34,042 nucleotides of DNA. Source: a virus. The notes beneath the pieces are model-generated. The model saw nothing but the letters and a program-made list of their open reading frames with translations, was not told the origin of the DNA and did no database searches. The position numbers and the translations under genes were made by a program. Numbering within the stretch: the stretch's first letter is position 1; each line of letters opens with the position of its first letter. Positions 9,182-34,042 of this stretch are shown here, in pieces. The DNA is taken from IMG/VR virus record IMGVR_UViG_3300031857_000716, positions 1-34,042 of that record; one strand, written 5' to 3'.

Positions 9182-9254
9182 AGTCAGGTGGCGCAATGGT
9201 GACGCTGTGGAGTCGCTCTCTGCATTGATACAGGTTCGAATCCTGTCCTGACTA
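9182..9254 (+). tRNA. tRNA, atypical (formal anticodon CGC)
   Basis: A 73-nt cloverleaf: acceptor arms AGTCAGG (9182-9188) and CCTGACT (9247-9253) pair perfectly; D-stem GCG/CGC with a loop containing GG; anticodon stem GTGGA/TCTGC with two wobbles; T-arm ACAGG-TTCGAAT-CCTGT is perfect, with the canonical TTCGAAT loop. The discriminator is A9254 and CCA is not encoded. The 7-nt anticodon loop GTCGCTC has U33 and would place CGC at 34-36. However, position 37 is T rather than a purine, G32-C38 could pair, and there is no G3-U70, so alanine identity is doubtful. It may be a decayed or specialised tRNA. Confidence 0.75.
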
Positions 9255-9276
9255 CTGATTTATGAATGATATATTA

Positions 9277-15637: not shown

Positions 15638-16009
15638 ATGCCCGGTGGAAAAGGTAAAATAAGACCTGAAGATGGCAAACAATGGCCTAAAGGAAAAAGT
15701 GGAAATCCAAAAGGCAGACCGAAAAAACTGCCACGACTTGATGATTTACTGGTGGATATACTTGGTGAATCAAAAGATGATGTTACAGCAATAGAAGCAA
15801 TACTTAAAGTCTTAAGGTCGAAAGCAGCAAAAGGCGATTTGAAAGCTATTGAAATGTTATTGGATAGATATTATGGTAAACCAATACAAAGTATAAACCA
15901 AAATAATGACTCTAAAGTTAAGGTTGAGGTAGTTTGGGATAATGAGTTCAATGAAAATACAACTGCAACGGCCTCACTTCAATCAGGACAGGGTACTGAA
16001 GGAAGCTAA
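15638..16009 (+). CDS. Terminase small subunit-like protein (DUF5681)
   Basis: 123 residues starting 2 nt after the methyltransferase stop. The N-terminus has the KGKSGNPKGRPKK signature of DUF5681 proteins, which often sit directly upstream of large terminase genes. A helical region (about 35-80) and a disordered tail follow. It would recognise the packaging site and load the large subunit. The 3' end overlaps the large subunit by 59 nt. The first part shares the AT-rich composition of the methyltransferase. Confidence 0.75.
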   Translation: MPGGKGKIRPEDGKQWPKGKSGNPKGRPKKLPRLDDLLVDILGESKDDVTAIEAILKVLRSKAAKGDLKAIEMLLDRYYGKPIQSINQNNDSKVKVEVVWDNEFNENTTATASLQSGQGTEGS

Positions 16010-17162
16010 ACGCTTCAACCTACTTAAGTGTGGACGAAGATTCGGGAAGTCAACGCTATCCATCTACAAGGCAGCTGAAGCCTTGGTAAAAGGGGAGTCA
16101 GTAGCTTACTTTGCCCCTACCTACAAGGATGCTTCGGAATGGTGGAGTGAGATAAATTGGAGACTTCAACCGATGATATCTTCCAAGGACTCGACACTTA
16201 AGCAGATAAAGACCATCACTGGCGGTAAGCTTGACGTATGGTCATTCGATAATCCTGACAGCGGTCGAGGTCGTAAGTACCACCTTGTTCTTATCGATGA
16301 GTGCGAGAAAGGCGGTAACTTTGAGATAGCTTGGAAACAATCCATCCGACCAACGCTAACGGACTACAAGGGTTCTGCATGGTTCTTCAGCACCCCGCAG
16401 TTCGGTCGGACGTTCTTTAAGGAGCTTTTCAACTATCAGGATAGACTGGATGATTGGAAGTCGTGGAAGTTCACGACCTATGATAACCCTTACATCGACC
16501 CGGCGGAGGTGGATGCCGCAAAAAATGAACTCGACCCGTTGACCTTCGCCTGTGAGTACATGGCCGAAGATGTAGACCTTTCTAATAAGCCGTTCGCCTA
16601 TTGCTTTGATAAGACCCGGCACGTTAAGACTGTCAGGTATGAGAGCGGTCACTACCTATACCTATCCTTTGACTTTAACGTGGACCCTATCACGTGCGTA
16701 GCCAGTCAGTACATCAACGGGGAGATACGGTTCATCCGTGAGTTCAGGCTATCCAACTCCAATATCTACGAACTTTGCGACCAGATACGGGCAGTCTATC
16801 CCGATGCGGTCTACATGGTTACAGGTGATGCCAGTGGTCAGGCACGGTCGGCGTTGACCATTGGAAACATTAACTACTACTCGGTCATCCGTGAGAAACT
16901 CCTACTTAATAAGGGACAGTTCAAGGTACCATCGGTTAACCCGGCGATTAGTGACTCTCAGGTATTGACCAACAGTATCCTTCAGAACCATACCGTTTAC
17001 TTTGACCCATCGATGACTTGGACCATCGATGATATGCTTTACGTGGAGGTGACGGATACGGGTGGCATCGATAAGGCCAAGGATAAACATCGGTCTCACT
17101 TATTGGATGCTGTTCGATATACTTTTAGTACCTTTCACAAACATTTAATTAAGGTCTTTTGA
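15951..17162 (+). CDS. Terminase large subunit
   Basis: About 403 residues, the DNA-packaging motor. ATPase: Walker A near residue 25 (KCGRRFGKST), Walker B near 110 (HLVLIDECEK), and coupling motif WFFSTPQ near 140. Nuclease (RNase H fold): acidic residues in LSFDFNVDP, VTGDASGQ and HLLDAVRY, in the expected order. ATG 15951 is favoured; the in-frame ATG at 15942 adds three residues. Both starts lie inside the small subunit gene, so translation is probably coupled. The protein is compact for a TerL, lacking additions. Confidence 0.93.
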   Translation: MKIQLQRPHFNQDRVLKEAKRFNLLKCGRRFGKSTLSIYKAAEALVKGESVAYFAPTYKDASEWWSEINWRLQPMISSKDSTLKQIKTITGGKLDVWSFDNPDSGRGRKYHLVLIDECEKGGNFEIAWKQSIRPTLTDYKGSAWFFSTPQFGRTFFKELFNYQDRLDDWKSWKFTTYDNPYIDPAEVDAAKNELDPLTFACEYMAEDVDLSNKPFAYCFDKTRHVKTVRYESGHYLYLSFDFNVDPITCVASQYINGEIRFIREFRLSNSNIYELCDQIRAVYPDAVYMVTGDASGQARSALTIGNINYYSVIREKLLLNKGQFKVPSVNPAISDSQVLTNSILQNHTVYFDPSMTWTIDDMLYVEVTDTGGIDKAKDKHRSHLLDAVRYTFSTFHKHLIKVF

Positions 17163-17163
17163 G

Positions 17164-17349
17164 ATGCCTACCTATTTCGATAAGGTATTCTACGTCTATC
17201 CCGACAGCAAGCAGCCGGAACTGGCTAGGGTTGACGGGGTATACTGCAATCTGTTTTACCAGTTCAACAGCTATGGAGAGGCATGGTTGTTCCTGTTAGA
17301 GAATCACATCCGGCGTATGGAAGAATATAAGCACGATGATAAGAACTAA
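17164..17349 (+). CDS. Unknown protein, 61 aa
   Basis: Unrecognised. It starts one base after the terminase stop (TGAGATG) and overlaps the next gene by 14 nt. It is aromatic-rich at the N-terminus (Tyr/Phe) and charged at the C-terminus. Probably translated with the terminase; no domain seen. Confidence 0.55.
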   Translation: MPTYFDKVFYVYPDSKQPELARVDGVYCNLFYQFNSYGEAWLFLLENHIRRMEEYKHDDKN

Positions 17350-17767
17350 ACCTTTCTGCCAGTTCCTTTACGATATGCACGACCGCCCGGCAAAGGATGC
17401 GGTCTATCATTTCCTACTGAAGTGGTATGCATCGGATACCCATCCGGACCAACAGCCCAACGAATACGGACGTTACGACTTCCTAATGTACAAGGGAGAC
17501 GATGAGGTCAAGGTCGAGGTACAACGTAAGCTAGGGTGGACGGAACGGGGCAGATGGCAACGGAACTTCAATAGCATCGACATCGAGTACCGTAAGCGAA
17601 AGAGTGAGGCGGACTTGTTCTGCATCGTTAACGCCGCCATTGACACGGTCGCCATCATCCGTAGGGATGTGGTTATGCGAAGCCCTGTCACTGAAAAGGA
17701 TACCCGCTACGGTCGTGAGCCTTTCTTTAATATACCTATATTTAAAGCCTATATCTCTATCATATGA
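17336..17767 (+). CDS. Unknown protein, possibly nuclease-fold
   Basis: 143 residues. The segment YDFLMYKG then VKVEVQRKLGW places D48, E61 and Q63 in a spacing that could be a PD-(D/E)XK site of the E-x-Q variety, on strands flanked by helices; later DLFCIVNAAIDTVAII looks like another core strand pair. This is weak. It is coupled to the glycosyltransferase downstream by a 4-nt ATGA overlap. An unknown non-nuclease protein is equally possible. Confidence 0.5.
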   Translation: MIRTKPFCQFLYDMHDRPAKDAVYHFLLKWYASDTHPDQQPNEYGRYDFLMYKGDDEVKVEVQRKLGWTERGRWQRNFNSIDIEYRKRKSEADLFCIVNAAIDTVAIIRRDVVMRSPVTEKDTRYGREPFFNIPIFKAYISII

Positions 17768-18552
17768 AAATCCTAGTGAAGTGGCCAACACGGTCACGCC
17801 CGAATAAGTTTCTCAAGACCTTGTATCTGTATCAATCTTTGCGGTCAACGGATAACGTGGACTTTCTGATAACCATCGACAGCGATGACCATAGGATGTT
17901 ACAGCGTGACGTAGTCAATACCATGAAGCAGTGGGGCAACCTACGCTATGAGATTATGCAGCCTGCCGGAAAGATAGCCGCTATCAATCACGGCCTTGCT
18001 GACGTTAGCCGTCAGTACGACATCATCCTACTGGCATCGGATGACATGATACCTGCGGTCAAGGGGTGGGATAAGCGGATAGCCGATGACATGGAGCGGC
18101 TCTATCCCGATACTGATGGTGTCCTTTGGTACAACGATGGGTATGTGGGGGATAAGCTCAACACGCTCTGCATCCTTGGGACCAAGTATTACCGCCGCTT
18201 CAACTACATCTATAACCCTGAGTATAAGGCTCTTTGGTGCGATAACGAGTTCATGGAAGTGGCTTCTATGTTGGGGAAACAGACCTACTTTAAAGACGTT
18301 ATCATCCGCCATGAGCATCCTATTCACGGTCACGGACGGCAGGATAATCTAAACCATAGAGACAATCATTTGTATTATGAAGACAAACGAACCTACGACC
18401 TTCGAAAGTCCAACAACTTTGGAATCACAGCCATTACTAAGCCTATTGATACCGACCCTTCAGAACCGGACGGAGCTGTTCGGCAAGTTGCTCAAGGAGA
18501 TAAACAGCCAGATAGCAAACCTAAGCGCAGAAGGAAAGGTTCAAGTGTGTAG
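17764..18552 (+). CDS. Glycosyltransferase, GT-A (GT2-like)
   Basis: 262 residues. The N-terminus has KWPTRSRP then strand FLITIDSDD, and an acidic DDM (D93-D94) after IILLAS that would bind the metal and nucleotide-sugar, typical of GT-A folds. The recognisable domain seems to end near the RTYDLRKSNNFG segment (about residue 218). The last ~45 residues, ending SKPKRRRKGSSV, are low-complexity and lie in the overlap with the next gene, in the other frame. It is plausibly used to decorate virion proteins or alter host surface glycans; the acceptor is unknown. Confidence 0.78.
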   Translation: MKILVKWPTRSRPNKFLKTLYLYQSLRSTDNVDFLITIDSDDHRMLQRDVVNTMKQWGNLRYEIMQPAGKIAAINHGLADVSRQYDIILLASDDMIPAVKGWDKRIADDMERLYPDTDGVLWYNDGYVGDKLNTLCILGTKYYRRFNYIYNPEYKALWCDNEFMEVASMLGKQTYFKDVIIRHEHPIHGHGRQDNLNHRDNHLYYEDKRTYDLRKSNNFGITAITKPIDTDPSEPDGAVRQVAQGDKQPDSKPKRRRKGSSV

Positions 18553-19009
18553 CCTTTCGGATAACAGGCAGATGTCCATCGGTGAGAAGCGTAACCGCTT
18601 GATGGCGATGGCTACGGGTAAGTACATTGCCTTTATCGATGACGATGACACTATCCACCGTGACTACCTACGTCATGTTTTACGGGCGTTGGAACTTGAT
18701 CCTGATGTGGTTGGTTTGGTGGGTGAGATAACCATGCAGGCAACCGGAAGGGGGACTATCCGTAGGAAGTTCTTTCATACCATCCGTAATGATAGGTACT
18801 ACCAGTCGCAACGGGGGTACGAGCGGCCGCCGAACCATCTGAACCCGATGCGTAAGAGTATTGCCCAAAGGTTTGAATTTATCGACAAAAGCCACGGAGA
18901 GGATACGGACTGGGCGATGCGAATCTGCAAGACAAAAGCCTTAAAGTCAGAGGTCATGGTGGATAATATACTTTATTATTACAACTTTAATCCAAATAAA
19001 AAGTATTAA
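18377..19009 (+). CDS. Glycosyltransferase family 2-like
   Basis: 210 residues. Typical GT2 features: LLSLLIPTLQNR near residue 20, IGEKRNRLMAMATGKYIAF leading to an acidic DDDD run near 88-91, and HGEDTDWAMRI near 175 as the catalytic-base region. The start lies 176 nt inside the upstream glycosyltransferase, in the +1 frame relative to it. The first ~19 residues (Thr/Ser/Pro-rich) precede the core. Frame and position also allow a frameshifted fusion of the two domains. The stop is within the -7 element of the next gene. Confidence 0.8.
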   Translation: MKTNEPTTFESPTTLESQPLLSLLIPTLQNRTELFGKLLKEINSQIANLSAEGKVQVCSLSDNRQMSIGEKRNRLMAMATGKYIAFIDDDDTIHRDYLRHVLRALELDPDVVGLVGEITMQATGRGTIRRKFFHTIRNDRYYQSQRGYERPPNHLNPMRKSIAQRFEFIDKSHGEDTDWAMRICKTKALKSEVMVDNILYYYNFNPNKKY

Positions 19010-19014
19010 CTTTG
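19007..19014 (+). promoter_or_regulatory. -7 promoter element for the tail block
   Basis: TAACTTTG matches TAnnTTTG. Its TAA is also the stop of the glycosyltransferase, and ATG 19020 lies only 5 nt downstream, predicting a leaderless transcript. A TTTA 17 nt upstream (18986-18989) is a weak, short-spaced -33 candidate. Confidence 0.5.
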
Positions 19015-19019
19015 TAGGT

Positions 19020-19376
19020 ATGAGCATCAATATCTGTGACTTATGCTATGAGGTGACCGTTCCTGCCTGTCAGGATACGTACACTTTTGATACTGGACTA
19101 ACGGCGGCCACCTATTATACGCTGATTTTAGAGGACATTAACGGCAACCAGTATAATTACATCAGCACCCCGGCTGGCGGTTCGGGGGTATGGACGCTTA
19201 ATACATCCTACTTTCCTGACGGTATGTTCAACCAATGGTCAGGCAGTTATCGAATTACCTTCAGTGCCGATACTAGCGGTAAAGCTACGGTAGGGGATGA
19301 AGAGCTGACTATCGATGGTGGTAGTTACTTCTGCATCATTATGAAGATGGTCAAATCTACATTGGTATACGATTGA
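19020..19376 (+). CDS. Virion-associated protein, 118 aa
   Basis: Unrecognised. It opens with a Cys-rich stretch (NICDLCYEV, then PACQ). The rest is a beta-rich sequence of alternating Thr/Tyr/Gly, like small tail or fibre accessory domains. It has its own probable promoter and overlaps the next gene (TGATG). First gene of the block leading to the tape measure, so a structural role is likely. Confidence 0.6.
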   Translation: MSINICDLCYEVTVPACQDTYTFDTGLTAATYYTLILEDINGNQYNYISTPAGGSGVWTLNTSYFPDGMFNQWSGSYRITFSADTSGKATVGDEELTIDGGSYFCIIMKMVKSTLVYD

Positions 19377-19750
19377 TGGCGTGGTCTGAACTCTTTGCGA
19401 TGGCTTTGGCCAATAGTCTTGTTATCTTTGGGATTAACAAGGCTACCGCTTTTGAGTTCTGCCATCCCGATGATAACGGATCAGATTTCTGCGATGGTGA
19501 CGGGGTGGATAAGGATAGCAAGATGGTACTGTATCGTTTCCGTCTGTGGTCTATCCAGTCCCTTGGTAACTTTTGGAGTAAGCCGCTGTTCACTTGTCCA
19601 CCCTGCATGGCATCCGTTCACTCGACCTACTTCTATTGGGGACTGATGCCAGCCACTCAGGAATCGTTAATACTTTACCCCTTGTACGTATTGGGGCTTT
19701 CAGGGTTAGTAGCACTAATCAATTCAGTAACTAAATATGGAAATTCTTAA
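19376..19750 (+). CDS. Membrane protein with CPPC motif
   Basis: About 124 residues from ATG 19376; the preceding TTG codon is in frame but unlikely. Hydrophobic segments lie near residues 6-24 and 95-117, with an acidic loop (DDNGSD..DGDGVDKD) and CPPCMASVHS near 72-81. The CPPC-plus-aromatic context resembles the DUF1360-type membrane proteins found in some phages; this is a loose match. Unusual in a tail block; function unknown. Confidence 0.55.
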   Translation: MAWSELFAMALANSLVIFGINKATAFEFCHPDDNGSDFCDGDGVDKDSKMVLYRFRLWSIQSLGNFWSKPLFTCPPCMASVHSTYFYWGLMPATQESLILYPLYVLGLSGLVALINSVTKYGNS

Positions 19751-20024
19751 GGAAGCACTGGAAAGAAACGGGTTTGAATACATTGGACCTTGTAAGATAT
19801 GCGGCGGTCGTGGCTTTGAGTACAAGCTCAATAAGACCATAGCAAAGATTAAAAAGGATGACAGAGGTAACGAGCTAAAGGTTACCCTAAGCGGATGGAC
19901 ACAACAGGGACGGCGGATAGTTCCAACACAGATAGAGAAAAAGAACCCGAACCACGTAGAGAATATAGATACCCTAATAAGAAAACATTCAGGTCTAGAT
20001 GACAACTCAAGCACAGAACAATAA
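19737..20024 (+). CDS. Small protein with CxxCxGxG motif
   Basis: 95 residues. Near residue 19 it has CKICGGRGF, one half of a DnaJ-type zinc motif (CxxCxGxG). The rest is basic and charged, ending in a disordered Asn/Ser/Glu tail. A dimer could form a full zinc site. It overlaps its neighbours by 14 and 26 nt. Position before the tail chaperone suggests a role in tail assembly; no family recognised. Confidence 0.6.
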   Translation: MEILKEALERNGFEYIGPCKICGGRGFEYKLNKTIAKIKKDDRGNELKVTLSGWTQQGRRIVPTQIEKKNPNHVENIDTLIRKHSGLDDNSSTEQ

Positions 20025-20622
20025 CGACCATTGGGTAGTTGACGAAGGTCACGTCATAGTTCCGGCATTTATGTCGGGTGGCGTTCAGTACTACCAGATG
20101 AAGGACATCTTCAATAGCTTTGCCGGACGGGCATTGGATGCTATGGCCATCTACGAAAAGTGGTCGATGCGTACCAGTCCTGAGTTCATGACGGCATGGC
20201 TCACGGCTTTGGAGAATACCATCAACGCCAACCCTATCAAGATTACAGAGGTAGCCGACATGATCAATGTCATGCGTGAGCGTATCAACTTCGCTATCCC
20301 TACGGAGTCCATCATTTGGGAACTAGCGGCCGTGGCCTTCTTTGACCGTAATGAGTCACCATACCGTTACGACCCTGAGTATGCTAAGGATAAGGTAGCC
20401 CGTTGGAAACAGGATGAGGGCTTGCCCGCTTTTTTTTTCAAGACCCCACTAAAGGATATGGTCAGCTTTCCCGACTTATCGGAGAAAGGTTTAGAGACTT
20501 ATTTGAAGGCGGTGGAGGCGGTATCAGGGAAACAGTTAGAGAAAGTGCTATCCAAAGTTTTGTCCGGTCAGCTGAATCCCGGTTTATTATCAGTGTTAGA
20601 ATCCGAACGGAGTTTGGTTTAG
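19999..20622 (+). CDS. Tail assembly chaperone (G-like), with -1 frameshift site
   Basis: 207 residues, placed directly upstream of the tape measure gene, as tail assembly chaperones (lambda gpG) are. It is mainly helical, cytoplasmic, and has no known catalytic motif. Codons 145-147 read TTT TTT TTC preceded by T, a perfect -1 slippery run of nine T (20430-20438). In-frame translation continues to TAG at 20620-20622. A -1 slip enters a second frame that ends at 20708, giving a GT-like product of about 236 residues. The zero-frame C-terminus also reads as a good amphipathic helix, so both products look real. Confidence 0.82.
   Translation: MTTQAQNNNDHWVVDEGHVIVPAFMSGGVQYYQMKDIFNSFAGRALDAMAIYEKWSMRTSPEFMTAWLTALENTINANPIKITEVADMINVMRERINFAIPTESIIWELAAVAFFDRNESPYRYDPEYAKDKVARWKQDEGLPAFFFKTPLKDMVSFPDLSEKGLETYLKAVEAVSGKQLEKVLSKVLSGQLNPGLLSVLESERSLV
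20430..20438 (+). promoter_or_regulatory. Slippery T9 site for -1 frameshifting
   Basis: Nine consecutive T, read as GC[T TTT TTT TT]C in the zero frame. Both tRNA-Phe can re-pair perfectly after a one-base backward slip. The -1 frame has its last upstream stop at 20415-20417, 12 nt before the run, and is then open to 20706. Confidence 0.75.
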
Positions 20623-20708
20623 ATGCTAACAAACTTAACGTTTATGAGTATTACCTGCTCTTAGAGCAGTTAGAAAAGTTAAGTCGTGGCAGAAACAGTC
20701 GTCATTAA
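20436..20708 (+). CDS. -1 frame extension of the tail chaperone (GT-like)
   Basis: After the slip at the T9 run, the -1 frame encodes about 90 residues to TAA 20706-20708. It has no good start of its own close to the run, so it is expressed only as a fusion. The stretch includes a Gly run (EGGGGG) that would act as a hinge, then a basic helix and a C-terminal amphipathic part (LNVYEYYLLLEQLEKL) that reads like true protein. It overlaps the tape measure start (GTG 20686) by 23 nt. In lambda the T part of gpGT contacts the tail tube protein while the G part binds the tape measure. Sequencing error in the homopolymer is the main alternative. Confidence 0.72.
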   Translation, partial: FQDPTKGYGQLSRLIGERFRDLFEGGGGGIRETVRESAIQSFVRSAESRFIISVRIRTEFGLDANKLNVYEYYLLLEQLEKLSRGRNSRH

Positions 20709-22989
20709 CATAGAGGCCAATACTCAGGGGCTTCAGTCTACAATCGATTTACTCACCAAGTTAGGTGTGGTAGAGCAGAAGGTCGCCGATGAGTTCCGTA
20801 AGACTAACGAGCAGAACGTCACCTCGCTGAACAAGAACGTTCAGGCTACTACCAAGGAGTTCGAGAAACTTGACAAGGCTGTCAAGGGTATCAAGGCTGA
20901 CAATCAGTTAGCCAAGGGACTAGATGCCAGTAAGGAGATTGCTAAGACGGGCAACAGTTTTACTAGCTTACGTCAACAGTTCAAAGAAGCTACCAAAGAA
21001 GTTGAACAGCTCACAGAAAAGTTCGGTGCTTTAGATGCTCGTACTATTGCGGCTGCACAGAAGGCAGGAGAGTTAGGTAGTGAGATTGATAATATCAATA
21101 AGCAGATAGCGGCACTTACTCCAGAGGGTAAGTTCCAAGCCATTCAGAACCTTGGTGGTGCTATTGCCGGGGTGTTTCAAGTGGCTACTGGTGCCTTACA
21201 AGCTTTCGGAGTTGAGAGTGAACAGGCTACCAAGATAGCCCAACAGTTCCAAGGGGCGTTGAACATCTTCGGTGGATTGTCACAGCTATCTCAGTTGAAG
21301 GATAGTCTGACGGCGGTTAAGGGTGCATTGGGACTGACTACGGCGGCACAGGTTGCCAATACTACTGTTACTGAAGGTGCTACGGTTGCAACTGAAGCAC
21401 AGGCAGTAGCTAATACGACAGCTACAAGCACATTCAGAGCGTTGACAGCGGCCATGGCGGCTAATCCGTTTACCACGGTATTGATAGCCATCACAGCAGT
21501 AGTTGGAGCGATTGCATTATTCAGCGATGAGACTGAAGATGCTACGGAAAAGGTTAAAGACCTTAACAATGCTTTAGAATCCACCAATATCGGTTACGAG
21601 GGTGAAGTAAAAGCTTTGGAACGTATTGGTAAGGTTGAACTGGATAACCTTCAGACCCGTATAGATGTCCGTAAGGCTCAAGGTGCCGGTATCAAAGAGA
21701 TTGCAGACCTTGAACGTAAGTTACTTGAAGAACAGGGAAAACAATTACAGCTACGTGCCAACGCTAACACACGAGCATTGAATGAAGATATAGCGGCATA
21801 CAATCAGCTGATAGGTGTAGCAGGTGAGGAAGCGGCTAAGACCCGTGCTGAACTTGATAAACGCATCGCCGACCGCCGTGACTTTAATAAGCAGGTAGTA
21901 GTAGACGCTCAACTATTAAAGAACGATATCGTTGTCCTTGAAGCCGAAACAACAGCGGCACTAAAGAAGGAATATGATGCACAGGCTAAAGACCGTGAGA
22001 TAGCGGCACAACGTAAGCGTGATGCTGAACTTGGACCTGTAATCAAGGCACCGACAGCAGCTCCGGTTACTGAGATACCGATAGAGCAACCTCCGCAGGA
22101 AATTGTTACAACGGTAAGTTACAAAGTTGACCCACAAGCCCAAAAGGAATACGAGGCTAACGTTCAGTCAGCGAAAGAGCAACTTGAAGACCTAAAGGCT
22201 TCAGTCGGTCAGTTGGCTTTAAATACCGGATTAGATATTGCCTTTCAGCAGATAGATAAACTTTTTGAAGAGCAGCTAGACCGTGTCAATAGATTAAAGG
22301 AAGCGCAACTAGAGGCTATCACCGAAGAAGAGGAAGCCCTTACGGAAAGCTACGAAAATCGTAAGATAGGTAAGCGTGAACTCGAAGAAGAACAGGAACG
22401 GTTAGCACGTCAACGTATTGCCGCTGAAAAGAAAGCCGAAAAGGAAGTTAATGAGATAAAGAAGAAACAGGACATCGCCAACCGTGCTGCTGCCTTGTTT
22501 AACATCGGTATCAATACATGGGTAGCTATATCCAAGACTACCGCTGAACTTGGTGCTGTCCTTGCCGCTCCTTTGATACCACTATTGATTACCCAAGGTG
22601 CTATACAAGCCGCTGCCGTCCTTGCTCAACCGCTACCAAGGTACAAGAAAGGTACGCTGTCTGTTGGCGGGGTTGGTTCAGAAGATAGTGAATTGGCACT
22701 CCTTCAGCCGGGTGAGGCGGTCATCCCTACGGATACTAACCGCCGCTACCATCCTGCCATTAAGGCTATCTACCACGGTAAGATAAAGCCTGAAGATATT
22801 AACAACTTTGTGAACCTCAAACTCCGTGGAGACTATTCCGCATCGGACTCTCGCCCGGTAACGGCAAAGATGGATACCTCCGACCTGTATGCACTGGGAC
22901 GGATAATGAAGAAGAACGATGGCGTTTATGTGAGGAACATAGGCGAATTAGCCGCTTTGATTACTGACAGTTATAATCCAAGAAGATAG
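20686..22989 (+). CDS. Tape measure protein
   Basis: 767 residues starting at GTG 20686. Long helical, Gln/Glu/Lys-rich sequence with coiled-coil stretches (about 30-130 and 545-600). Hydrophobic segments lie near 250-281 (Ala/Ile/Val rich) and 600-650, common in tape measures for later membrane insertion. The last ~120 residues are a compact non-helical end. At about 0.15 nm per residue it predicts a tail near 115 nm, fitting a siphovirus. Position after the frameshifting chaperone is diagnostic. It is coupled to the next gene (TAGTG). Confidence 0.88.
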   Translation: MAETVVINIEANTQGLQSTIDLLTKLGVVEQKVADEFRKTNEQNVTSLNKNVQATTKEFEKLDKAVKGIKADNQLAKGLDASKEIAKTGNSFTSLRQQFKEATKEVEQLTEKFGALDARTIAAAQKAGELGSEIDNINKQIAALTPEGKFQAIQNLGGAIAGVFQVATGALQAFGVESEQATKIAQQFQGALNIFGGLSQLSQLKDSLTAVKGALGLTTAAQVANTTVTEGATVATEAQAVANTTATSTFRALTAAMAANPFTTVLIAITAVVGAIALFSDETEDATEKVKDLNNALESTNIGYEGEVKALERIGKVELDNLQTRIDVRKAQGAGIKEIADLERKLLEEQGKQLQLRANANTRALNEDIAAYNQLIGVAGEEAAKTRAELDKRIADRRDFNKQVVVDAQLLKNDIVVLEAETTAALKKEYDAQAKDREIAAQRKRDAELGPVIKAPTAAPVTEIPIEQPPQEIVTTVSYKVDPQAQKEYEANVQSAKEQLEDLKASVGQLALNTGLDIAFQQIDKLFEEQLDRVNRLKEAQLEAITEEEEALTESYENRKIGKRELEEEQERLARQRIAAEKKAEKEVNEIKKKQDIANRAAALFNIGINTWVAISKTTAELGAVLAAPLIPLLITQGAIQAAAVLAQPLPRYKKGTLSVGGVGSEDSELALLQPGEAVIPTDTNRRYHPAIKAIYHGKIKPEDINNFVNLKLRGDYSASDSRPVTAKMDTSDLYALGRIMKKNDGVYVRNIGELAALITDSYNPRR

Positions 22990-24980
22990 TGTTTAGGTTC
23001 TTTTTAAACGGTACTGAGATAACGGACCAGCCCGAAGGATGGGACGGCATGACTAGTAGCATCAAGCGTGATGACCTTACGGGTGGTCTTATCTTCGATG
23101 CTGACATCAAGTTCAAAAGCTACGGCGGACAGGACTTGTACGTGGCTCTAAAGACGGCATGGGATGCCGATAAGTTTGGCAAGTCGACACTGGATATCTT
23201 TCAGCGGTCGGGTACTGCCGGTAACGTTCTTATCCATGCCGGGACTATCTTCCATAGCGACCTTAAATGGAAACTCATTAACAATGCCGTTGAGTTCAAG
23301 GTCGAGGATGCTTCGTTTTATTCCAAGATTAACGCTAACAAGTCAGTGGAATCTAACGTCGATGTGACGTTAAGCAAGAACCTTGTACCGATTACAGCCC
23401 CTACATTCTTTCAACTTGAATGTCATAAGGTTTCCAACGGTAATTATTATGCCCAAAAGAGATACGCTTACAAGCTATACGATGTCATAAAGTATTACAT
23501 CGACTTTATGTCGGACGGTACGATAGGTTTTGAGTCGGATTGCTTTGGCGTTGGTGGGGTGTTTGAAGGTTATTGTATTGTAGGCGGTGACGAACTATAC
23601 AGCCATGCCCACTTAGTGACTCCACGGATGAGCTTTCAGAAGCTATTCGAGGATTTACGTAAGCGATTTAACGTAAGGTTCAGCATGATAGGAAGCATAA
23701 CTAGTCCTATCATGAAGCTCGAACCAAATGCTTTTTGGTTTGAGTCAGCCGATGTATACACTATTCCAGAACCGCCTGATGAGGTGGTTATGAATGTCAA
23801 TCAATCGTTGCTTTACGCCAATGTCAAGGTAGGCTCTGAAAAGTATGAGACCACATCGGCCATGACGTTCCCTGACGTTCAGTCTTTGGTGGCGTTCCGT
23901 GAGGAAACCTTCCACTTTGAGGGAACGAATAACGTAGATAATACGCTTGACCTTGTAGGTTCTTTGGTTATTTCCAATAGCTCTATCGACCTTTGTTTAG
24001 AACTACTTTCGGGATATGATTCTTATAATGAGGACGTATTCCTTATCCATTACGACACGGTAACCAATAGGACCATAAGTTCCGACTGGTTAGGTCTTGG
24101 ACACCATTTCTATAATGAGACGCTTAATAACGTCAACATCCTTAACCGTTGGTCGGATAGCTTACCCAATAACATTATCGCCAACTTTGCCAATACAAAT
24201 AACAATCGGTTTGAGGCGGTGATGACTAACACGGCTGTTCAGCCTACGGTGGTTATCGCAGGTGGTTCGGGTACTTCCATCGGTGGTCCGTTACGTTTTG
24301 ACGATGACTATACGTTAGGTAATGACCCCGGCGGTAACTATGGCGGCACTACCCCACAGGGATCACCCGTTACACAGCCGTTGAGTATCTATACCGCCCC
24401 GGCTAACGGTCGCTATACATTTACATCGGAAGTCTTACTGGCCTGTCAGCTGACACCTATCGGTGGCAATAATGTCGGGTCAGTTGAGGCCGAGGTATAC
24501 TTTCAGAAGTTTGACAGTACGAATAACCAGATAGATGACTTCTATGCAGGTCGTGTGTTTATCGGGTCTAGTGGTAACGTTAGCCTTTCGGGAACGTGGA
24601 TAACCTATATGTTATCTACTGAATACGTGGCTGTCTATCTTAATTTAGTTAGTCCTAACGTATCGGTAGGTAACGCATGGCTATTCAGTTACCAAGTCCG
24701 TCCGTTCCAAACCAAGTTCCGGTGTGATGCTATTGACTTGGGTGGCGGTGTGCTGTCGGCGGTGAATCCAGAAGCCTATAAGTGTGTGAAAATGGATTTT
24801 AAGTACCCGATGACACTTTCTGACTATCAGTCAATTAGAGCGTCGAAAAGTGGAATAATTGAAGTACCTTTGTTAAATAATGAGTCTATCCGAGGGTGGA
24901 TAGAAAATGTTAAATTCGACCACTACGGTGGGGAAACATCATTTTCGTTAATTACCGATGGCAATACAATTTATAGATAA
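22989..24980 (+). CDS. Tail tip / baseplate protein, 663 aa
   Basis: GTG start at 22989 overlapping the tape measure stop. The gene directly after a tape measure usually encodes the distal tail or hub. The N-terminal ~300 residues are beta-rich with aromatic strands (RFFLNGTEI, DLYVALKTAWDADKFG). The region near residues 430-470 is Gly/Pro-rich, followed by APANGRYTFTSEV and GTWITYMLSTEYVAVYL, which look like a small jelly-roll (C1q/TNF-like) domain of the sort found in host-binding tips. The last ~60 residues return to a mixed fold. Overlaps the fibre gene by 23 nt. Exact role not certain. Confidence 0.7.
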   Translation: MFRFFLNGTEITDQPEGWDGMTSSIKRDDLTGGLIFDADIKFKSYGGQDLYVALKTAWDADKFGKSTLDIFQRSGTAGNVLIHAGTIFHSDLKWKLINNAVEFKVEDASFYSKINANKSVESNVDVTLSKNLVPITAPTFFQLECHKVSNGNYYAQKRYAYKLYDVIKYYIDFMSDGTIGFESDCFGVGGVFEGYCIVGGDELYSHAHLVTPRMSFQKLFEDLRKRFNVRFSMIGSITSPIMKLEPNAFWFESADVYTIPEPPDEVVMNVNQSLLYANVKVGSEKYETTSAMTFPDVQSLVAFREETFHFEGTNNVDNTLDLVGSLVISNSSIDLCLELLSGYDSYNEDVFLIHYDTVTNRTISSDWLGLGHHFYNETLNNVNILNRWSDSLPNNIIANFANTNNNRFEAVMTNTAVQPTVVIAGGSGTSIGGPLRFDDDYTLGNDPGGNYGGTTPQGSPVTQPLSIYTAPANGRYTFTSEVLLACQLTPIGGNNVGSVEAEVYFQKFDSTNNQIDDFYAGRVFIGSSGNVSLSGTWITYMLSTEYVAVYLNLVSPNVSVGNAWLFSYQVRPFQTKFRCDAIDLGGGVLSAVNPEAYKCVKMDFKYPMTLSDYQSIRASKSGIIEVPLLNNESIRGWIENVKFDHYGGETSFSLITDGNTIYR

Positions 24981-26931
24981 TCAGCCGCTTACATGGCGTA
25001 CCGACTGGCCTACGGATAGCGACTGCAAAACGCCATACGATAGGGCTTGTACTCTTTATACCACGAACGACTACATCATGTCGCAATGGAAGCAGACTCC
25101 ATGCGGTGGTGGCGGTAATGAAATTTGCGACCCTACTTTCCCCAATACCAATTCCGAGTTAGTCACCAACGGTAGCTTTACCACTAATACTACGGGGTGG
25201 ACACTAGTTGGATGCACACGGGATGCTACAAATAAACGTATTCAGTTTGCCTCACAAAGTGAGTCCCTTGAACAGACAGGGGTAGTGAGTGCAGGGGTGA
25301 CCTATGATGTTACCTTTACCATCGGTGGCAATAACCGTACTTCGCTGAAGTTATACCTTGGTGGAACACTTCACCCTACCTACTTCAACGCACCGGGAAC
25401 TTATCGGGTGACTATGGTTGCCGGTGGTGCTAACACTAAGATACGCTTTGAGAACTACCTACTTGCACCTGCCTATAATGGATGGATAGATGATATCAGC
25501 GTTAAGCAGAACTCATGGAGTGGCGGATGTTGGAATACGGCTAACCCTACGCTATGGCTTAACAATGGTGACGGAACGGTAACCAAGGTACCGGGAACGG
25601 CATCCGACCTTATCAGTACTGTCAATACCTTACCGTTAGGGGCTTACGTCCGTATCGGTATATCAGTAACTAACCAGACGGCGGGTTCTTTGGAGATTGT
25701 CACTGATAGTAATAAGGGAACGATAACCGCCAACGGAACGTACTACTTTTACGATGACGACTATAATAACGATAACGTAACCCTTTCGGCGGATGCTGAC
25801 TTTGACGGGACTATATCTAACGTATCACTTATAGTTTATTCCAACTACTTTAATGTTATCCTAAAAGATACCAAAGGAGCTACGGATTACGACCTTAGCA
25901 GCTATCTGACTTATGATGAAGACTGGGTGACACTGAACTACCAACTTGGTAGTGTTGACCCGGGATGTTACGAGCTGTGTTTCTATGATGCCTGTGGATA
26001 TAGCGTTAATCAAGAACTGATTTCAGATACTGGCTTTACTCAAGCCATCGGCGGAGCGGCATGGCCTTCATCCGTGGCTACATCAGGAAGCATCGCTATC
26101 ACGGGCGGTGAGCTTGTAGTAACGCAATCTGGCATACCTTTGACAGCATTTGTCGAGGCTAACCCAATCACATGGCAGTCTTTTAACGGCAATACCCTAA
26201 CGGTTATTGATTACGACTTTACTACATCTACAGTTCAATATACTGGCTTTACCCGTATTCAGATATACGATAGTGCAACGGGCTTTGAGCTAACGTTGGT
26301 AACAAGTCCGGCAGCGGGAACGCAATATCAAGGTACTGTCAGTTGGCCTTATGCCATCGGCAATACCTCTAAGCTGGCTATCCGTATACAGTCTACCGGA
26401 GTAGCGGGTACTAAGATAGAGCTGACGGATATGTCTCTTATCGTTCAGGCTTACGTGCCGGGACAAATGGATGAGTATTGCTCTAACTGCGTAGAGATTA
26501 TCGATGATGCCGGATGCACGGTATGGGTGGGCGGTTCTAACGGTTCGGATGCTTTCGGCTTTCATTTCGCCAATAGCTTCCAAGTAGGGGCAAGGGTTCA
26601 GGCTATGCTTATCAATCCTAAATATCAGGGAGAAAATAACCGCTATGCAGATGCCAACGGAAAGTACACGGTCACAAGAGCAAATACGGGAAAGGTCTAC
26701 ACGCTCTTTATCGATTATACGGATGAGCATACTCACGATTGGCTACGGGTGGCCGTACTGTCTGACACTGTACGAATCGGATCATTCACCAACACCAACA
26801 ACTACTACACCGCCCTTGACGGTGGATACGAACCAGAGTGGCCGGACGCTATAGGTAACTGGCCATCGGCACAGGCCCGTATCGATGTTCAGAAGCAAAC
26901 GGACGAACTATATAATAACAATGCAGGATAA
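24958..26931 (+). CDS. Tail fibre / receptor-binding protein with CBM-like modules
   Basis: 657 residues. After a short Trp/Cys-rich N-terminus (residues 12-50) there is a module that begins NSELVTNGSFTTNTTGW (about 65) and ends GWIDDISVKQ (about 180), the layout of carbohydrate-binding modules of the CBM4/9 type. A second, more divergent module starts NQELISDTGFTQAIGG (about 350) and ends ELTDMSLIV (about 495). A CSNC motif follows near 505. Thr/Asn/Gly-rich, non-helical. It would bind host surface glycans. The glycosyltransferase that follows overlaps by 11 nt and may modify this protein. Confidence 0.72.
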   Translation: MAIQFIDNQPLTWRTDWPTDSDCKTPYDRACTLYTTNDYIMSQWKQTPCGGGGNEICDPTFPNTNSELVTNGSFTTNTTGWTLVGCTRDATNKRIQFASQSESLEQTGVVSAGVTYDVTFTIGGNNRTSLKLYLGGTLHPTYFNAPGTYRVTMVAGGANTKIRFENYLLAPAYNGWIDDISVKQNSWSGGCWNTANPTLWLNNGDGTVTKVPGTASDLISTVNTLPLGAYVRIGISVTNQTAGSLEIVTDSNKGTITANGTYYFYDDDYNNDNVTLSADADFDGTISNVSLIVYSNYFNVILKDTKGATDYDLSSYLTYDEDWVTLNYQLGSVDPGCYELCFYDACGYSVNQELISDTGFTQAIGGAAWPSSVATSGSIAITGGELVVTQSGIPLTAFVEANPITWQSFNGNTLTVIDYDFTTSTVQYTGFTRIQIYDSATGFELTLVTSPAAGTQYQGTVSWPYAIGNTSKLAIRIQSTGVAGTKIELTDMSLIVQAYVPGQMDEYCSNCVEIIDDAGCTVWVGGSNGSDAFGFHFANSFQVGARVQAMLINPKYQGENNRYADANGKYTVTRANTGKVYTLFIDYTDEHTHDWLRVAVLSDTVRIGSFTNTNNYYTALDGGYEPEWPDAIGNWPSAQARIDVQKQTDELYNNNAG

Positions 26932-27766
26932 AAGAGGCATACTCTTATTGGCTACGGGTCATCCGTATTACGCCCACATGGCGGTGAATCTGCTCGTTAG
27001 CTTACGTAGCTTCGAGCCTGAACTACCCGTGGCTATCCTGCATGACGGTCAAGGCTTTAGCCTTTTGGAAGGATGGCAACAGGACTATTTCACCACAGCC
27101 ATCGAGCTACCGGCAAAGCTCACGGGTGGTGACCCTTACCGTGTTAAGTTGCATCTGGATGAATTGACACCTTTTGAACAGACCATGTTTATGGATGTTG
27201 ATATGCTTTGGAATAACTTCCATAGTCCGATGGACCTATTCAATGACCTTGATGGTATCGAGTTCACCATGATTAACAGAGGTCGGGTGTCATCGGCTGA
27301 CAGCACGTTGAGCCGATGGGTAAACCTATCCGAAGTGGGAGACGCTTACAAGCTCGATGAGTTCTACGATATTAGCAGTGAGATAATCTACTTTGAAGGT
27401 ACTCCTAAAGTCTTTGCCGAAGCACGTAAGGTCTACAATAAGCCAAAGGTCAAGGTATCGGAGTTCGGCTCTGGACTTCCCGATGAGGCTTTCTTCATGA
27501 TTGCTATCGAGAAACTAGGCATCAAGCTACATCAGTCACCTTGGGAACCTTCCTACTGGGAGCCACGTTACTTCCCTAAACAGCATAACCGTAATCACGT
27601 CACTAGTTTCTACGCCCTTTCTGTTGGGGGTGCGTTCACCTCTAATCACATCAAGAAGATATACGACAGCCTTTGCAGTCACTATTATAGCTCTTTGGGT
27701 ATTGCTTCCAAGCCTTACCAATTACAAAATAAAAGCCGAATAATTAAAGAACGTAGGAAAATCTAA
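26921..27766 (+). CDS. Glycosyltransferase, GT-A fold (GT8-like)
   Basis: 281 residues. N-terminal strand GILLLATGHPYYAHMAVN, then FEPELPVAILHDG, then the nucleotide-sugar site FMDVDMLW with DxD at D92-D94, the layout of GT8 and related GT-A enzymes. Later PDEAFFMIAIEKLG and the aromatic SPWEPSYWEPRYFP fit the acceptor side. ATG 26921 is preferred; the in-frame start at 26885 would lie deeper in the fibre gene. It is the third glycosyltransferase of the window and sits between fibre and portal. Acceptor unknown. Confidence 0.78.
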   Translation: MQDKRGILLLATGHPYYAHMAVNLLVSLRSFEPELPVAILHDGQGFSLLEGWQQDYFTTAIELPAKLTGGDPYRVKLHLDELTPFEQTMFMDVDMLWNNFHSPMDLFNDLDGIEFTMINRGRVSSADSTLSRWVNLSEVGDAYKLDEFYDISSEIIYFEGTPKVFAEARKVYNKPKVKVSEFGSGLPDEAFFMIAIEKLGIKLHQSPWEPSYWEPRYFPKQHNRNHVTSFYALSVGGAFTSNHIKKIYDSLCSHYYSSLGIASKPYQLQNKSRIIKERRKI

Positions 27767-29517
27767 TGGCTATCATCGACATCAGCCAATACCACACCGG
27801 TGGTAAACGTCATCAGTTCTATGCTGAAACCGTTAAGCAATATCATTCTATCAAGACCCATGCCCTTGGTGAGTTTCCCAAGGAGCTAATCTCCGAACGC
27901 CGCCCCGGTGAATCGGAGACCATCAAGCGGTATCGAGAAAAGATATACGTTCCAAAGACTCAGGCTGCGGTAACTAAGATATTCAACAGCCTTCAGAAGA
28001 TACGCAAGTCAACGGACTATCTGATTAGCTTTAACGAGACGGTAGTACCGCCTATGGTTATCCGTGAGGAACGGCCATCGTATTACATGACCGATGAGTT
28101 CCCAAAGTACAAGTCTTTGGATAACTGGTTCTGGTCGGTGGCGTTCAATCAGTACCTGATGGATGCTAACGCTGTCATCATGGTAGCACCGCTGAACGTG
28201 GTTAAGGAGTCCAACGAATACTTTAAGCCATACCCTATCCTTTTCAATAGTCCGCAGGTTCTTGACTTTGTCTATGAGCAGTATGCGGTATTGAAGTCGG
28301 TAGAAGAAAGTACCTATCGCAGTGGTAACCGTAGCTATAAAGGAGCGGTGTACTATTCTGTTGACCGTGAGTCTATTGTTAAGTACGAACAGATAAACGC
28401 AAAGGGAGACTTTTCGGCTACCGAGTTCCTGCATGGTTTGGGTTATGCTCCATGCTTTAAGACTTATGGTATCATCGTTAAGGATGGCGTGGATGATGCG
28501 CTGTATTCTAGCCGTATCGCTCCTATCGTTCCGTCCCTTAACGAAGCGGCACGGGAATGGAGTGACTTACAGGCTGAAGTGGTTCAGCATATCCACAGCA
28601 CCATGTGGGCCATTCAGGGTAAGGAATGTAATGCCTGCCATGGTACTGGAGTCCTACCTAAAGCGGGTGCCAGTCCGATTGAATGTCACGACTGTAACGG
28701 CAAAGGGTTCTTTCCGTTCAATCCTTACGAACACATTACAGTTAAGCAGTCATCTTTGGGAGACCCTACTACTCCTATCCCCCCTGCCGGGTATCTTACC
28801 AAGCCTATTGATATTGCCAAACTGCAAGACCAGCGGGTTCATGACCATATCTACCACGCTCTGTCATCGCTGAACATGGAGTTCTTGGCCGCAGTACCTT
28901 TGTCACAGTCGGGGACGGCTAAAGAGGTTGACCGTGCCGAGCTGAATAACTTCGTTTATTCTATCGCTGAAGATTGCGTCCGTATCTTGGATGAGATTGC
29001 TGAAATGGTTATCGACTATCGCTATGGTGGTATCGTTCCTGACTATGAAAGCCGTGAGCAGTTACGCCCTAGCATTACCGTTCCTGAAAAGTACGACATC
29101 CTTCCTGAAGGTTACTTGGTGGATGAAATTGCTAAACTACGTAACAGCAAGGTTAGTCCATTGATTGTCAATGCCGCTGAATTGGAGTATGCCAGTAAGA
29201 AGTTCAATACCAATAAGAAGATAAAGGAGCGGTTACAGGACATCTATGCTCTTGACCCGTTGGCAGGTATGAACATCGAAGAGATATTGGTAGCGGTATC
29301 CAATAACGCCATAAGTAAAAAGACCTATATCATTCACAGTAATATCCGTGAGTTCGTGGATATGGCGCATGAAGATGATTCTGAGTTCTATCAGTTACCG
29401 ATGATGGATAAAAAGGCTGTCATCAGTGCTATGGCGGATGCGTGGATAATGGAAGAACGTCCTAGAAATATCATGGACGGTTCTGAAGGCATGGGTAACA
29501 TCAGCATCGGAGTTTAA
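27766..29517 (+). CDS. Portal protein with internal DnaJ-type zinc motif
   Basis: 583 residues in the place of the portal: before the head morphogenesis protein, scaffold and capsid. Beta-rich clip/wing-like sequence at 80-250, a long helix region at 330-420 (KLQDQRVHDHIYHALSSLN, then a helix rich in acidic residues), and a helical C-terminus. No sequence motif is diagnostic for portals; the call rests on size, composition and neighbours. Unusually, residues 288-315 contain CNACHGTG and CHDCNGKG (Cys288, 291, 307, 310), two DnaJ-type half-sites likely to bind one zinc. The start overlaps the upstream stop (TAATG). Confidence 0.78.
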   Translation: MAIIDISQYHTGGKRHQFYAETVKQYHSIKTHALGEFPKELISERRPGESETIKRYREKIYVPKTQAAVTKIFNSLQKIRKSTDYLISFNETVVPPMVIREERPSYYMTDEFPKYKSLDNWFWSVAFNQYLMDANAVIMVAPLNVVKESNEYFKPYPILFNSPQVLDFVYEQYAVLKSVEESTYRSGNRSYKGAVYYSVDRESIVKYEQINAKGDFSATEFLHGLGYAPCFKTYGIIVKDGVDDALYSSRIAPIVPSLNEAAREWSDLQAEVVQHIHSTMWAIQGKECNACHGTGVLPKAGASPIECHDCNGKGFFPFNPYEHITVKQSSLGDPTTPIPPAGYLTKPIDIAKLQDQRVHDHIYHALSSLNMEFLAAVPLSQSGTAKEVDRAELNNFVYSIAEDCVRILDEIAEMVIDYRYGGIVPDYESREQLRPSITVPEKYDILPEGYLVDEIAKLRNSKVSPLIVNAAELEYASKKFNTNKKIKERLQDIYALDPLAGMNIEEILVAVSNNAISKKTYIIHSNIREFVDMAHEDDSEFYQLPMMDKKAVISAMADAWIMEERPRNIMDGSEGMGNISIGV

Positions 29518-30419
29518 TGGCGTTAGATGACTTAAATAAGATTGTCCGTACCCTTGACGGCTCTGTCGAAGAGTTCGTCAAGGACCTGCCACTATCCGAG
29601 CAAAAGATATGGCAGAAGGTTCTTTCGTTGACCCGTCAGCTTGACGTTGACGGGATGGGTAAGGTGACCAATAACGTCAATAACCTGCGTATCCTTAATG
29701 ACATCAATAAGGAGATAAACGGCATCGTTCTTACCGATGAGTATAAGCAAAAGGTCGAGAGGTTTACCAATGTCTTTGCTGACTTGGAGACGCTTAATAA
29801 CAAGTACCTGTCATCGGTATTTACTCAGTTCAAGCCTTCCCGTGTTCTAAAGGAGTTGACAAAGGTGTCAATAGATATCACTATTGACCAACTTCAGGAA
29901 ACGGGAGTAGCTTCATCACTGGCATCTGAGCTAAAGGATATCCTAAAGCAGAACATCACTACGGGTGGTAACTATGCTGACATGACAGAGCAGCTAAGAG
30001 CCAGTATCCTTGGAGACCCTCAAACACCAGGAGGTCTTACCCGCTACGCCCGTACCTTTACTACGGATGCTATCAATCAGTATTCAGCTACCTATACTAA
30101 GACGGTAGCTTCCGACTTGGGTGCTGTATGGTACCGCTATACCGGTTCTAACATGGAGACCACCCGACCGTTCTGCGAGCATCTCACTAAAAAGGATGGC
30201 GGTTACTTCCACGTCAATGAAATACCGGGCTTTCTAAAGGGGCAAGTGGGGGATCAGAAAGTTCCTATCTATGCCAAATACAATCTGCCACAGGGCATGA
30301 ATGAGAATACCACAGCAGATAACTTCCTTGTATTACGGGGTGGCTATAACTGCGGACATCAGATATTCCCAGTCTCCAAGGCATCCGTTCCACCTTCGCT
30401 ACGTGCAAGGTTCGAGTAG
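29517..30419 (+). CDS. Head morphogenesis protein (Mu gpF-like)
   Basis: 300 residues. Helical N-terminal two thirds and a C-terminal part with the family pattern: YRYTGSNMETTRPFCEHL, then a Gly/Pro loop, then GGYNCGHQIFPV at the end. The Cys, His and aromatic residues of this block are characteristic of the Mu F / SPP1 gp7-like minor head proteins. These bind portal during procapsid assembly. The gene overlaps the portal stop, and its last 61 nt overlap an antisense ORF. Confidence 0.85.
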   Translation: MALDDLNKIVRTLDGSVEEFVKDLPLSEQKIWQKVLSLTRQLDVDGMGKVTNNVNNLRILNDINKEINGIVLTDEYKQKVERFTNVFADLETLNNKYLSSVFTQFKPSRVLKELTKVSIDITIDQLQETGVASSLASELKDILKQNITTGGNYADMTEQLRASILGDPQTPGGLTRYARTFTTDAINQYSATYTKTVASDLGAVWYRYTGSNMETTRPFCEHLTKKDGGYFHVNEIPGFLKGQVGDQKVPIYAKYNLPQGMNENTTADNFLVLRGGYNCGHQIFPVSKASVPPSLRARFE

Positions 30420-30580
30420 TTCCATTCACGGATAATCCTATCGATTATCTGTTGGCGACCTCTGAACTTTCCTTTCTTAAGTAGTTTTGATTGCTCTTCA
30501 AAGATGATAGCGGCGACTTCATCGCACATCTTATAGGTGAAGGCATGACAGTCGTAGGCACTACGGTTCTTTAGTTTCAT
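30359..30580 (-). CDS. Antisense small helical protein, 73 aa
   Basis: The only credible minus-strand gene. ATG at 30580 (MKLKNRSAYD) gives 73 residues; the further upstream TTG at 30598 overlaps its promoter box. The sequence is charged and helical (VAAIIFEEQSKLLKKGKF, RQQIIDRIIREW), has no membrane segment, and could be a small DNA-binding or RNA-polymerase-binding regulator. The 61-nt 3' overlap with the head gene makes an antisense RNA effect possible. It fills a 248-nt gap in the plus-strand genes. Not a recognised family. Confidence 0.6.
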   Translation of the reverse strand: MKLKNRSAYDCHAFTYKMCDEVAAIIFEEQSKLLKKGKFRGRQQIIDRIIREWNYSNLARSEGGTDALETGNI

Positions 30581-30595
30581 GTTGTATAGGTTATA

Positions 30596-30603
30596 CAAAT
30601 ATA
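30596..30603 (-). promoter_or_regulatory. -7 promoter element, minus strand
   Basis: On the minus strand this reads TATATTTG, an exact TAnnTTTG. Transcription would start near 30589, about 9 nt before the ATG at 30580. No clear -33 TTTG is seen. The surrounding DNA (30590-30625) is AT-rich. Confidence 0.5.
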
Positions 30604-30639
30604 AGTTTATAAAGTCTTATTTCCTACGCTTTTAGGTTT

Positions 30640-30647
30640 GACCTTTG
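30640..30647 (+). promoter_or_regulatory. Candidate -7 promoter for scaffold/capsid genes
   Basis: GACCTTTG differs from TAnnTTTG in the first base, and is followed by TAACTT. It is the best candidate to drive scaffold and capsid genes from the divergent intergenic region. ATG 30668 lies 20 nt downstream. No convincing -33 box. Confidence 0.35.
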
Positions 30648-30667
30648 TAACTTAAACTGGCTAACTT

Positions 30668-31564
30668 ATGGCAACTACCGCAGGTGAATTTATCACAAAA
30701 CTGGCTACAATGGCAGGGCTGTCTACATCAGACCCGGACATCGTAAGCATCCTATCCAATTCCGAATTTAGTAACTATCGTCTCCCTGAAGGAGTTTACT
30801 CCAAAATCAATAGCTCTCTATTGACATTGGACTCTGCACGGAATAACGAAAACTTACGCCGTCACTACCATGCTGAAATCCTCAACGGTCTCGACAATAA
30901 CATCGAGTCAATGTTAGAGCGTTTCGGTATAGATGGTGAAGTGGCTGACACGGTACGTCAAGAAAAGAAGACTACCGAAAAGTACAACCGACTCATCGAG
31001 CGGTTAAACGACCTTCACGCTAAAAAGGCTCAAAGCACTACCAAGAGTGACAAAGCCGAGTTAGAGAATGAAATCTCCAAACTAAACAATCAGGTGAAGG
31101 AATTGAACACCAAACTGCAAACAGCACCCGTAGAACGTGACCAGTTCTGGACAGAAAAGCTCAAGACAAAAGCTGTCCAAAATCTACTCACATCCTATAA
31201 CTACGCAGGGGAAAAAGACATTCCGAAAGATGTTCTAATTGAGACCGCATCCGTTCTGCTTAACCGTAAGCTCAACGAGTCCAAAGTCCGATTAGAGTAT
31301 TCTGCCGATAACGATAATATCAGTCTGAAAACCGAGTCAGGCATGGACTTCTACAAGGATAATACGCCCATATCCTTCAAGTCGTTCGCCGACCAAGTGT
31401 TAGCAGAAAGTAAGCTCTTAGCTATCCCGGCCTCTCAAGGGGCAACTCAACCCGCCGCTTCTTCACAGCCTATGCCTACGCAAACCATCGTACAAGGTAA
31501 CGGGCGTGTCCAAGATGCTTCCAGATACCTTGCGGCACTGGATGACATTGCATCAGGACGTTAA
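30668..31564 (+). CDS. Capsid scaffolding protein
   Basis: 298 residues immediately before the major capsid gene. Charged and strongly helical, with a coiled-coil region at about 95-165 (heptad-like Leu/Ile in KAELENEISKLNNQVKEL), then a disordered Gln/Ala/Pro-rich segment and a small basic C-terminus (AALDDIASGR). This is the standard architecture of a scaffold that is expelled or degraded before packaging. No protease domain seen. The capsid gene starts 14 nt later. Confidence 0.82.
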   Translation: MATTAGEFITKLATMAGLSTSDPDIVSILSNSEFSNYRLPEGVYSKINSSLLTLDSARNNENLRRHYHAEILNGLDNNIESMLERFGIDGEVADTVRQEKKTTEKYNRLIERLNDLHAKKAQSTTKSDKAELENEISKLNNQVKELNTKLQTAPVERDQFWTEKLKTKAVQNLLTSYNYAGEKDIPKDVLIETASVLLNRKLNESKVRLEYSADNDNISLKTESGMDFYKDNTPISFKSFADQVLAESKLLAIPASQGATQPAASSQPMPTQTIVQGNGRVQDASRYLAALDDIASGR

Positions 31565-31578
31565 TACTAATCTAAACT

Positions 31579-32694: not shown

Positions 32695-32713
32695 TAGTGC
32701 CTAATCAATCACG

Positions 32714-33649: not shown

Positions 33650-34042
33650 TGCTAACGATAAGCTCTAACCTCAAAGACGTAACCTCCGCCCTTATGGGTA
33701 GGCTTAAGGCCGTTGCTGACCCTAACGGGGAAGTTAGAGACAAGATGCTTCGTACCATTGCCTTGGATACCGCCGCTCAGATGAAGGTGCGTATCCACCA
33801 AGAAGGTAAGAATAGCGAGGGTGGACAGATAGGAGAATACTCCAACGCCTATCTAAAGGTTCGAGAAAAGAACCGCCGTGGCACGGATAAGAAGGTTATC
33901 CTTTCCCTTACCCGTCAGATGGAGAATGATTTCGGTATCGTTTCAGGAACGGGTGCTACGGGTTACGCCCTTGGTTTCAAGAACCCTGATAATGCCGATA
34001 AAGCCAGTTGGGCTGAAGAACGCTATGGCGATGTCTACAAGC
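33649..34042 (+). CDS. Head-tail completion protein (Mu gpG / HK97 gp10-like), partial
   Basis: 131 complete codons before the window ends. The N-terminal helices (NLKDVTSALMGRLKAVA, then RDKMLRTIALDTAAQMKVRIH) and IGEYSNAYLKVREK followed by VILSLTRQMENDF fit the phage virion morphogenesis / HK97 gp10-type neck family, where the 'I-G-x-Y-S' and 'L-T-R-x-M' segments recur. The ATG overlaps the previous stop (TAATG). The gene is cut by the window edge and may continue at position 1, ending at 38. Confidence 0.72.
   Translation, partial: MLTISSNLKDVTSALMGRLKAVADPNGEVRDKMLRTIALDTAAQMKVRIHQEGKNSEGGQIGEYSNAYLKVREKNRRGTDKKVILSLTRQMENDFGIVSGTGATGYALGFKNPDNADKASWAEERYGDVYK

Follow-up and report, generated by a model that had tools for sequence, protein, structure and literature searches.

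In phage lambda, the tail gene directly before the tape measure gene yields two products, gpG and gpGT, from one start, through a −1 shift that takes place near the end of the first frame, and its slip heptamer is GGGAAAG. Tail assembly chaperones (TACs) diverge widely, and homology to a known TAC family is helpful rather than required. Known stimulators of −1 shifts lie at a spacing of 10–14 nt, and in Escherichia coli dnaX, which combines an SD sequence, a slip heptamer and a hairpin, the SD spacing is ~10 nt. The lambda-type TAC arrangement has been reviewed (PMC5009743). In phage P2, gene E/E′ shifts at TTTTTTG without a hairpin (PMC3091744), and two members of an HK97-like chaperone cluster shift with measured efficiencies of 6% and 7% (PMC3711429).

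We analysed the uncultivated virus record IMGVR_UViG_3300031857_000716 over its whole length of 34,042 bases (hereafter the window), in which a presumed TAC ORF sits directly upstream of the tape measure gene and carries a run of nine T's (T9). The features discussed below, some of them by reference to relatives that have seven T's at this site (T7 relatives), are as follows.

19999–20622, + strand: zero-frame ORF of 207 aa, presumed G-like TAC, with its stop TAG at 20620–20622 (from ORF reading and relatives in IMG/VR)
20411–20420, + strand: purine-rich AGGATGAGGG, in a position matching the AAGGAGG of T7 relatives; candidate weak internal SD, unsupported in the window's own clade
20415–20417, + strand: TGA that closes the −1 frame just 5′ of the slip site
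20418–20708, + strand: open −1 frame, predicted C-terminal domain of the long form, with 90 codons used after the slip (20436 to 20705)
20430–20438, + strand: T9 run with the slip heptamers T TTT TTT (20430–20436) and T TTT TTC (20433–20439) in zero-frame slip phase
20686–22989, + strand: tape measure gene with a GTG start (PHROG tape measure families, E down to 8.5e-7)

The T9 run is followed by a C, and the zero frame reads GCT TTT TTT TTC, so that a slip at T TTT TTT or at T TTT TTC would give the identical fusion, ...LPAFFFQDPTKGYG.... From the CAA at 20439, the −1 frame continues for 89 codons after the T run, to 20705, and ends at a TAA (20706–20708) after overlapping the tape measure start by 23 nt; the predicted frameshift product thus has 146 + 90 = 236 aa. 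An earlier note on this DNA had placed a T9 in slippery phase in the gene before the tape measure, next to a −1 frame closed just upstream and then open for about 89 codons, with a second product of about 236 residues, and all of its coordinates proved right. It had also regarded a pure poly-T slip site as unusual; the T9 itself is indeed there, but such a site is not exotic, given the precedent of TTTTTTG in P2 (PMC3091744).

Like lambda gpG/gpGT, the window gene combines one start and two predicted products with a −1 slip site near the end of the first frame and directly before the tape measure gene, whereas its slip run is T9 instead of the lambda heptamer and its sequence has no detectable relation to known TAC families. 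With P2 E/E+E′ it shares a T-rich slip site, the lack of a downstream RNA hairpin and the position of a tail gene before the tape measure; it differs in that the T9 holds two overlapping heptamers and in protein length (207 and 236 aa in the window versus 91 and 142 aa in P2), with no relation detected between the two. We conclude that the window gene most likely undergoes a −1 ribosomal frameshift yielding G- and GT-like tail assembly chaperones. This kind of frameshift is already known, and the long form is one that simple ORF calling overlooks.

To evaluate conservation, relatives were collected from IMG/VR, with the zero-frame protein or alignments of it as queries and, in one scan, the −1 domain. 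The resulting 56 sequences covering the site (the window and 55 IMG/VR contigs) range from near-identical down to ~36% protein identity; many contigs are near-identical, and 55 of the 56 sequences sort into 29 groups that share less than 95% DNA identity with one another. Searching with just the C-terminal half of the −1 domain, so as to catch members that might use a different slip site, added no new contig, and no relatives were found in isolated phages. We found T TTT TTT in zero-frame slip phase in 56/56 sequences, with the −1 frame open past the slip site in every one and 85–97 codons long in the 52 with a visible end. In all 34 sequences tabulated, the slip begins with the third-position T of a codon for Ala, Asp, His, Ser or Val, and this T ahead of the two Phe codons is retained although its codon switches between GCT, GAT, CAT, AGT and GTT. 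Upstream of the slip, Phe is encoded by TTC 331 times versus 100 times by TTT; nonetheless the slip codons are always TTT TTT. The comparison with homologous genomes that the earlier note had suggested thus supports its proposal of a programmed −1 frameshift in a G/GT arrangement: the T9 is shared within the window's clade, and the second frame is conserved as protein.

The run taken by itself carries little weight. T9 is the sole T run of ≥7 on the + strand of the 34 kb window, but shuffled versions of the window contain on average 0.93 such runs when both strands are counted, and its mere presence is therefore not significant; the significance of the slip site comes from its phase and its conservation in all relatives covering it. 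Since homopolymer runs are error-prone, the true run might also be shorter or longer than nine, with the T9 introduced during sequencing or assembly, and the gene might really be one continuous frame or broken. We consider this very improbable, as T9 is also present in six other contigs belonging to this clade, which come from five metagenomes, and T7 and T9 relatives alike have both frames open. The −1 domain can be aligned across the family (29–95% identity to the window) and has invariant residues, and the zero-frame C terminus is also conserved.

Substitution patterns point in the same direction. When the window is compared with contig L004, zero-frame dS is 0.96 ahead of the slip but 0.18 in the overlap, and in more distant pairs zero-frame dN/dS rises from ~0.1 before the slip to ~0.5–0.75 in the overlap, which indicates that both frames are constrained there. 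Beyond the zero-frame stop (20623–20685), each of the other two frames has several stops, while L004 and L007 differ in the −1 frame by a dN of 0.13 and a dS of 1.42, with no stop codon. Across divergent pairs, −1 frame dN in this region is 0.07–0.13 and dS 0.53–1.42 or saturated, rough numbers given how short the region is. Judging from these values, the −1 frame past the zero-frame stop is under purifying selection.

A reading in which no fusion protein is made, the −1 frame being open by chance or translated as a gene of its own, might draw on two observations: a single open −1 frame is not very rare (with synonymous codons resampled in single sequences, the chance of one across the overlap is 0.3–36%, and 1.5% for the window), and some relatives contain ATG, GTG or TTG in the −1 frame. 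We find it scarcely credible, however, in view of a −1 frame that is open in all 56 sequences, conserved as protein and under purifying selection past the zero-frame stop. The window's own −1 frame has no ATG, GTG or TTG, so a frameshift would be needed for its translation, and a stand-alone −1 gene was accordingly rejected.

No known TAC family matches the protein, and its presumed role as a TAC is therefore based on its gene order, its architecture and weak matches by fold. The position next to the tape measure gene, short and long forms from one start and a retained gene order fit the lambda TAC arrangement: the order terminase, TAC, tape measure is kept in several relatives, and tape measure orthologues come after the TAC in L003, L006, L007 and L048. 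Searches of Pfam, PHROG, NCBIfam and PDB sequences with the chaperone protein gave no match, which leaves the protein family unnamed and without a Pfam, PHROG or NCBIfam model. AlphaFold modelled the zero-frame protein with a pLDDT of 62 and the −1 domain, as three helices, with a pLDDT of 70, which is low to medium confidence. When the zero-frame model was compared with viral folds, every functionally named entry in the best 14 was a TAC, with E-values of 0.23–0.78, none of them significant; neither a search of this model against the PDB nor a fold search of the −1 domain gave a significant match. G/GT-type chaperone genes lie downstream of the gene for the major tail protein; no major tail protein was recognised among the genes upstream of the TAC in the window.

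We hold it highly probable that the gene at 19999–20622 produces a short form and, through a minority −1 ribosomal slip, a long form. Within this explanation, the slip phase, the open second frame, its conservation and purifying selection, and the gene order are shown by the sequences, and we infer the shift itself, its ribosomal nature, its efficiency and the roles of both proteins. The 207-residue short form would come from the majority of ribosomes, which never leave the zero frame. In a minority, with UUU UUU paired to tRNA-Phe in both the P and the A site, the ribosome would move one base backwards at U UUU UUU or U UUU UUC and then read the −1 frame to 20708, giving the 236-residue long form. 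If the two forms work as lambda gpG and gpGT do, the part common to both would bind the tape measure protein, the tail tube subunit would be recruited by the −1 tail, and the short form would outnumber the long one; the ratio of the two forms matters in chaperones of the G/GT kind. A point against this explanation is that no stimulatory RNA structure emerged. Such a structure, whether spanning the slip site or lying downstream of it, was rejected, as folding energies were no better than those of shuffles, and no covariation or compensatory changes were found in the consensus fold of the T7 relatives.

The 34 tabulated sequences comprise 8 with T9 (the window, L002–L007 and L048) and 26 with T7. 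All 26 T7 sequences have AGGAGG upstream of the heptamer, at 16 nt in 22 sequences and at 19 nt in 4 (for example AAGGAGG at L008:4379–4385, 16 nt upstream of the T7 slip; the 19-nt spacing is found in one branch). The Lys and Glu codons that spell AGGAGG are synonymously invariant in the T7 relatives, against a mean codon identity of 0.50 over the gene, and anti-SD pairing energy in the T7 set is better than in 300/300 codon shuffles (mean −15.3 versus −12.3 kcal/mol). Conversely, AGGAGG is absent from 7/8 T9 sequences, the window among them, and the SD-like signal of the T9 set does not exceed the codon-shuffled expectation (232/300 shuffles reach it); an internal SD was thus rejected for the window and retained for the T7 relatives. 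As in E. coli dnaX, an SD-like element precedes the heptamer in T7 relatives, but the family has no hairpin and the spacing of 16 or 19 nt is longer than in dnaX. Being longer than 10–14 nt as well, this spacing counts against a classic SD role in the T7 relatives.

With nine T's, the window's run belongs to the A or T runs of about nine or more and is also long enough for slippage by RNA polymerase (PMC1088944), a rival that the earlier note had not named. The polymerase would add a base on T9 in some transcripts, so that the mRNAs would differ in run length, and those with U10 would be read into the −1 frame with no ribosomal shift, giving the same two proteins. In many bacteria, nine is the run length at which selection against slippage becomes visible, and known functional sites include 9A/9T runs and the U run of Shigella mxiE (PMC1088944). 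The window resembles mxiE and Thermus dnaX (A9) in having a homopolymer of about nine, and mxiE likewise fuses two overlapping frames; moreover, all 8 T9 sequences have exactly nine T's, and the 7 that lack AGGAGG look as if the run alone sufficed. In contrast to those two systems, however, the family includes 26/26 T7 sequences that keep the same arrangement with seven T's, below the usual slippage-prone length, and retain the exact ribosomal heptamer phase, and known TAC cases are described as ribosomal (PMC5009743). Transcriptional slippage seems to us an unlikely explanation. Family-wide, the prevalence of T7 argues for ribosomal slipping; within the window's clade, either the ribosome or the polymerase may slip.

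T9 and T7 sequences form two groups on the protein tree, so the contrast between them rests on one or two changes and is offered as a hypothesis. It is conceivable, though doubtful, that one family has taken two routes to the same fusion, with an SD-assisted ribosomal shift at T7 plus AGGAGG in most members and, in the window's clade, a bare T9 at which RNA polymerase slippage has taken over in full or in part. If this were so and the hosts were Bacteroidota, the T7 branch would represent a −1 frameshift that uses a normally hidden anti-SD.

The host is likely a member of the Bacteroidota. The primase-polymerase matches those of phages of Cellulophaga, Polaribacter and Bacteroides, and also of Arthrobacter, and start sites in the window show no SD enrichment (mean −2.5 versus a background of −3.4 kcal/mol); GTDB genomes searched by TAC and by terminase contained no relative. 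In Bacteroidota the anti-SD is sequestered (PMC9976891), yet prfB keeps its SD-like frameshift site in that class (PMC8710568), which makes a conserved AGGAGG before a −1 slip in such phages a useful test case. The locus thus contributes a frameshift cassette, conserved without exception, from a TAC family of uncultivated phages that has no name so far, and in which T7 plus AGGAGG versus bare T9 amounts to a natural experiment on slip-site requirements, set in a phage without SD enrichment at its starts and probably in a host phylum known for an occluded anti-SD (PMC9976891, PMC8710568).

The surroundings of the gene have features of their own. Late gene order (15942–34041) is unusual, in that the terminase, two glycosyltransferases, the TAC and the tape measure gene precede genes with weak matches to a portal (27766–29517), a head maturation protease (29517–30419) and a scaffold-like protein (30668–31564). 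The tape measure start directly overlaps the −1 frame in the window, unlike in the T7 relatives L008, L011, L012, L035, L044, L086 and L087, which have at least one extra ORF between the TAC and the tape measure gene or next long ORF. The glycosyltransferase-like ORFs (17764–18552 and 18377–19009) overlap by 176 nt in different frames, with a similar overlap in L006 and L007, and a tRNA-Ala gene with anticodon CGC is found at 9182–9255 of the window.
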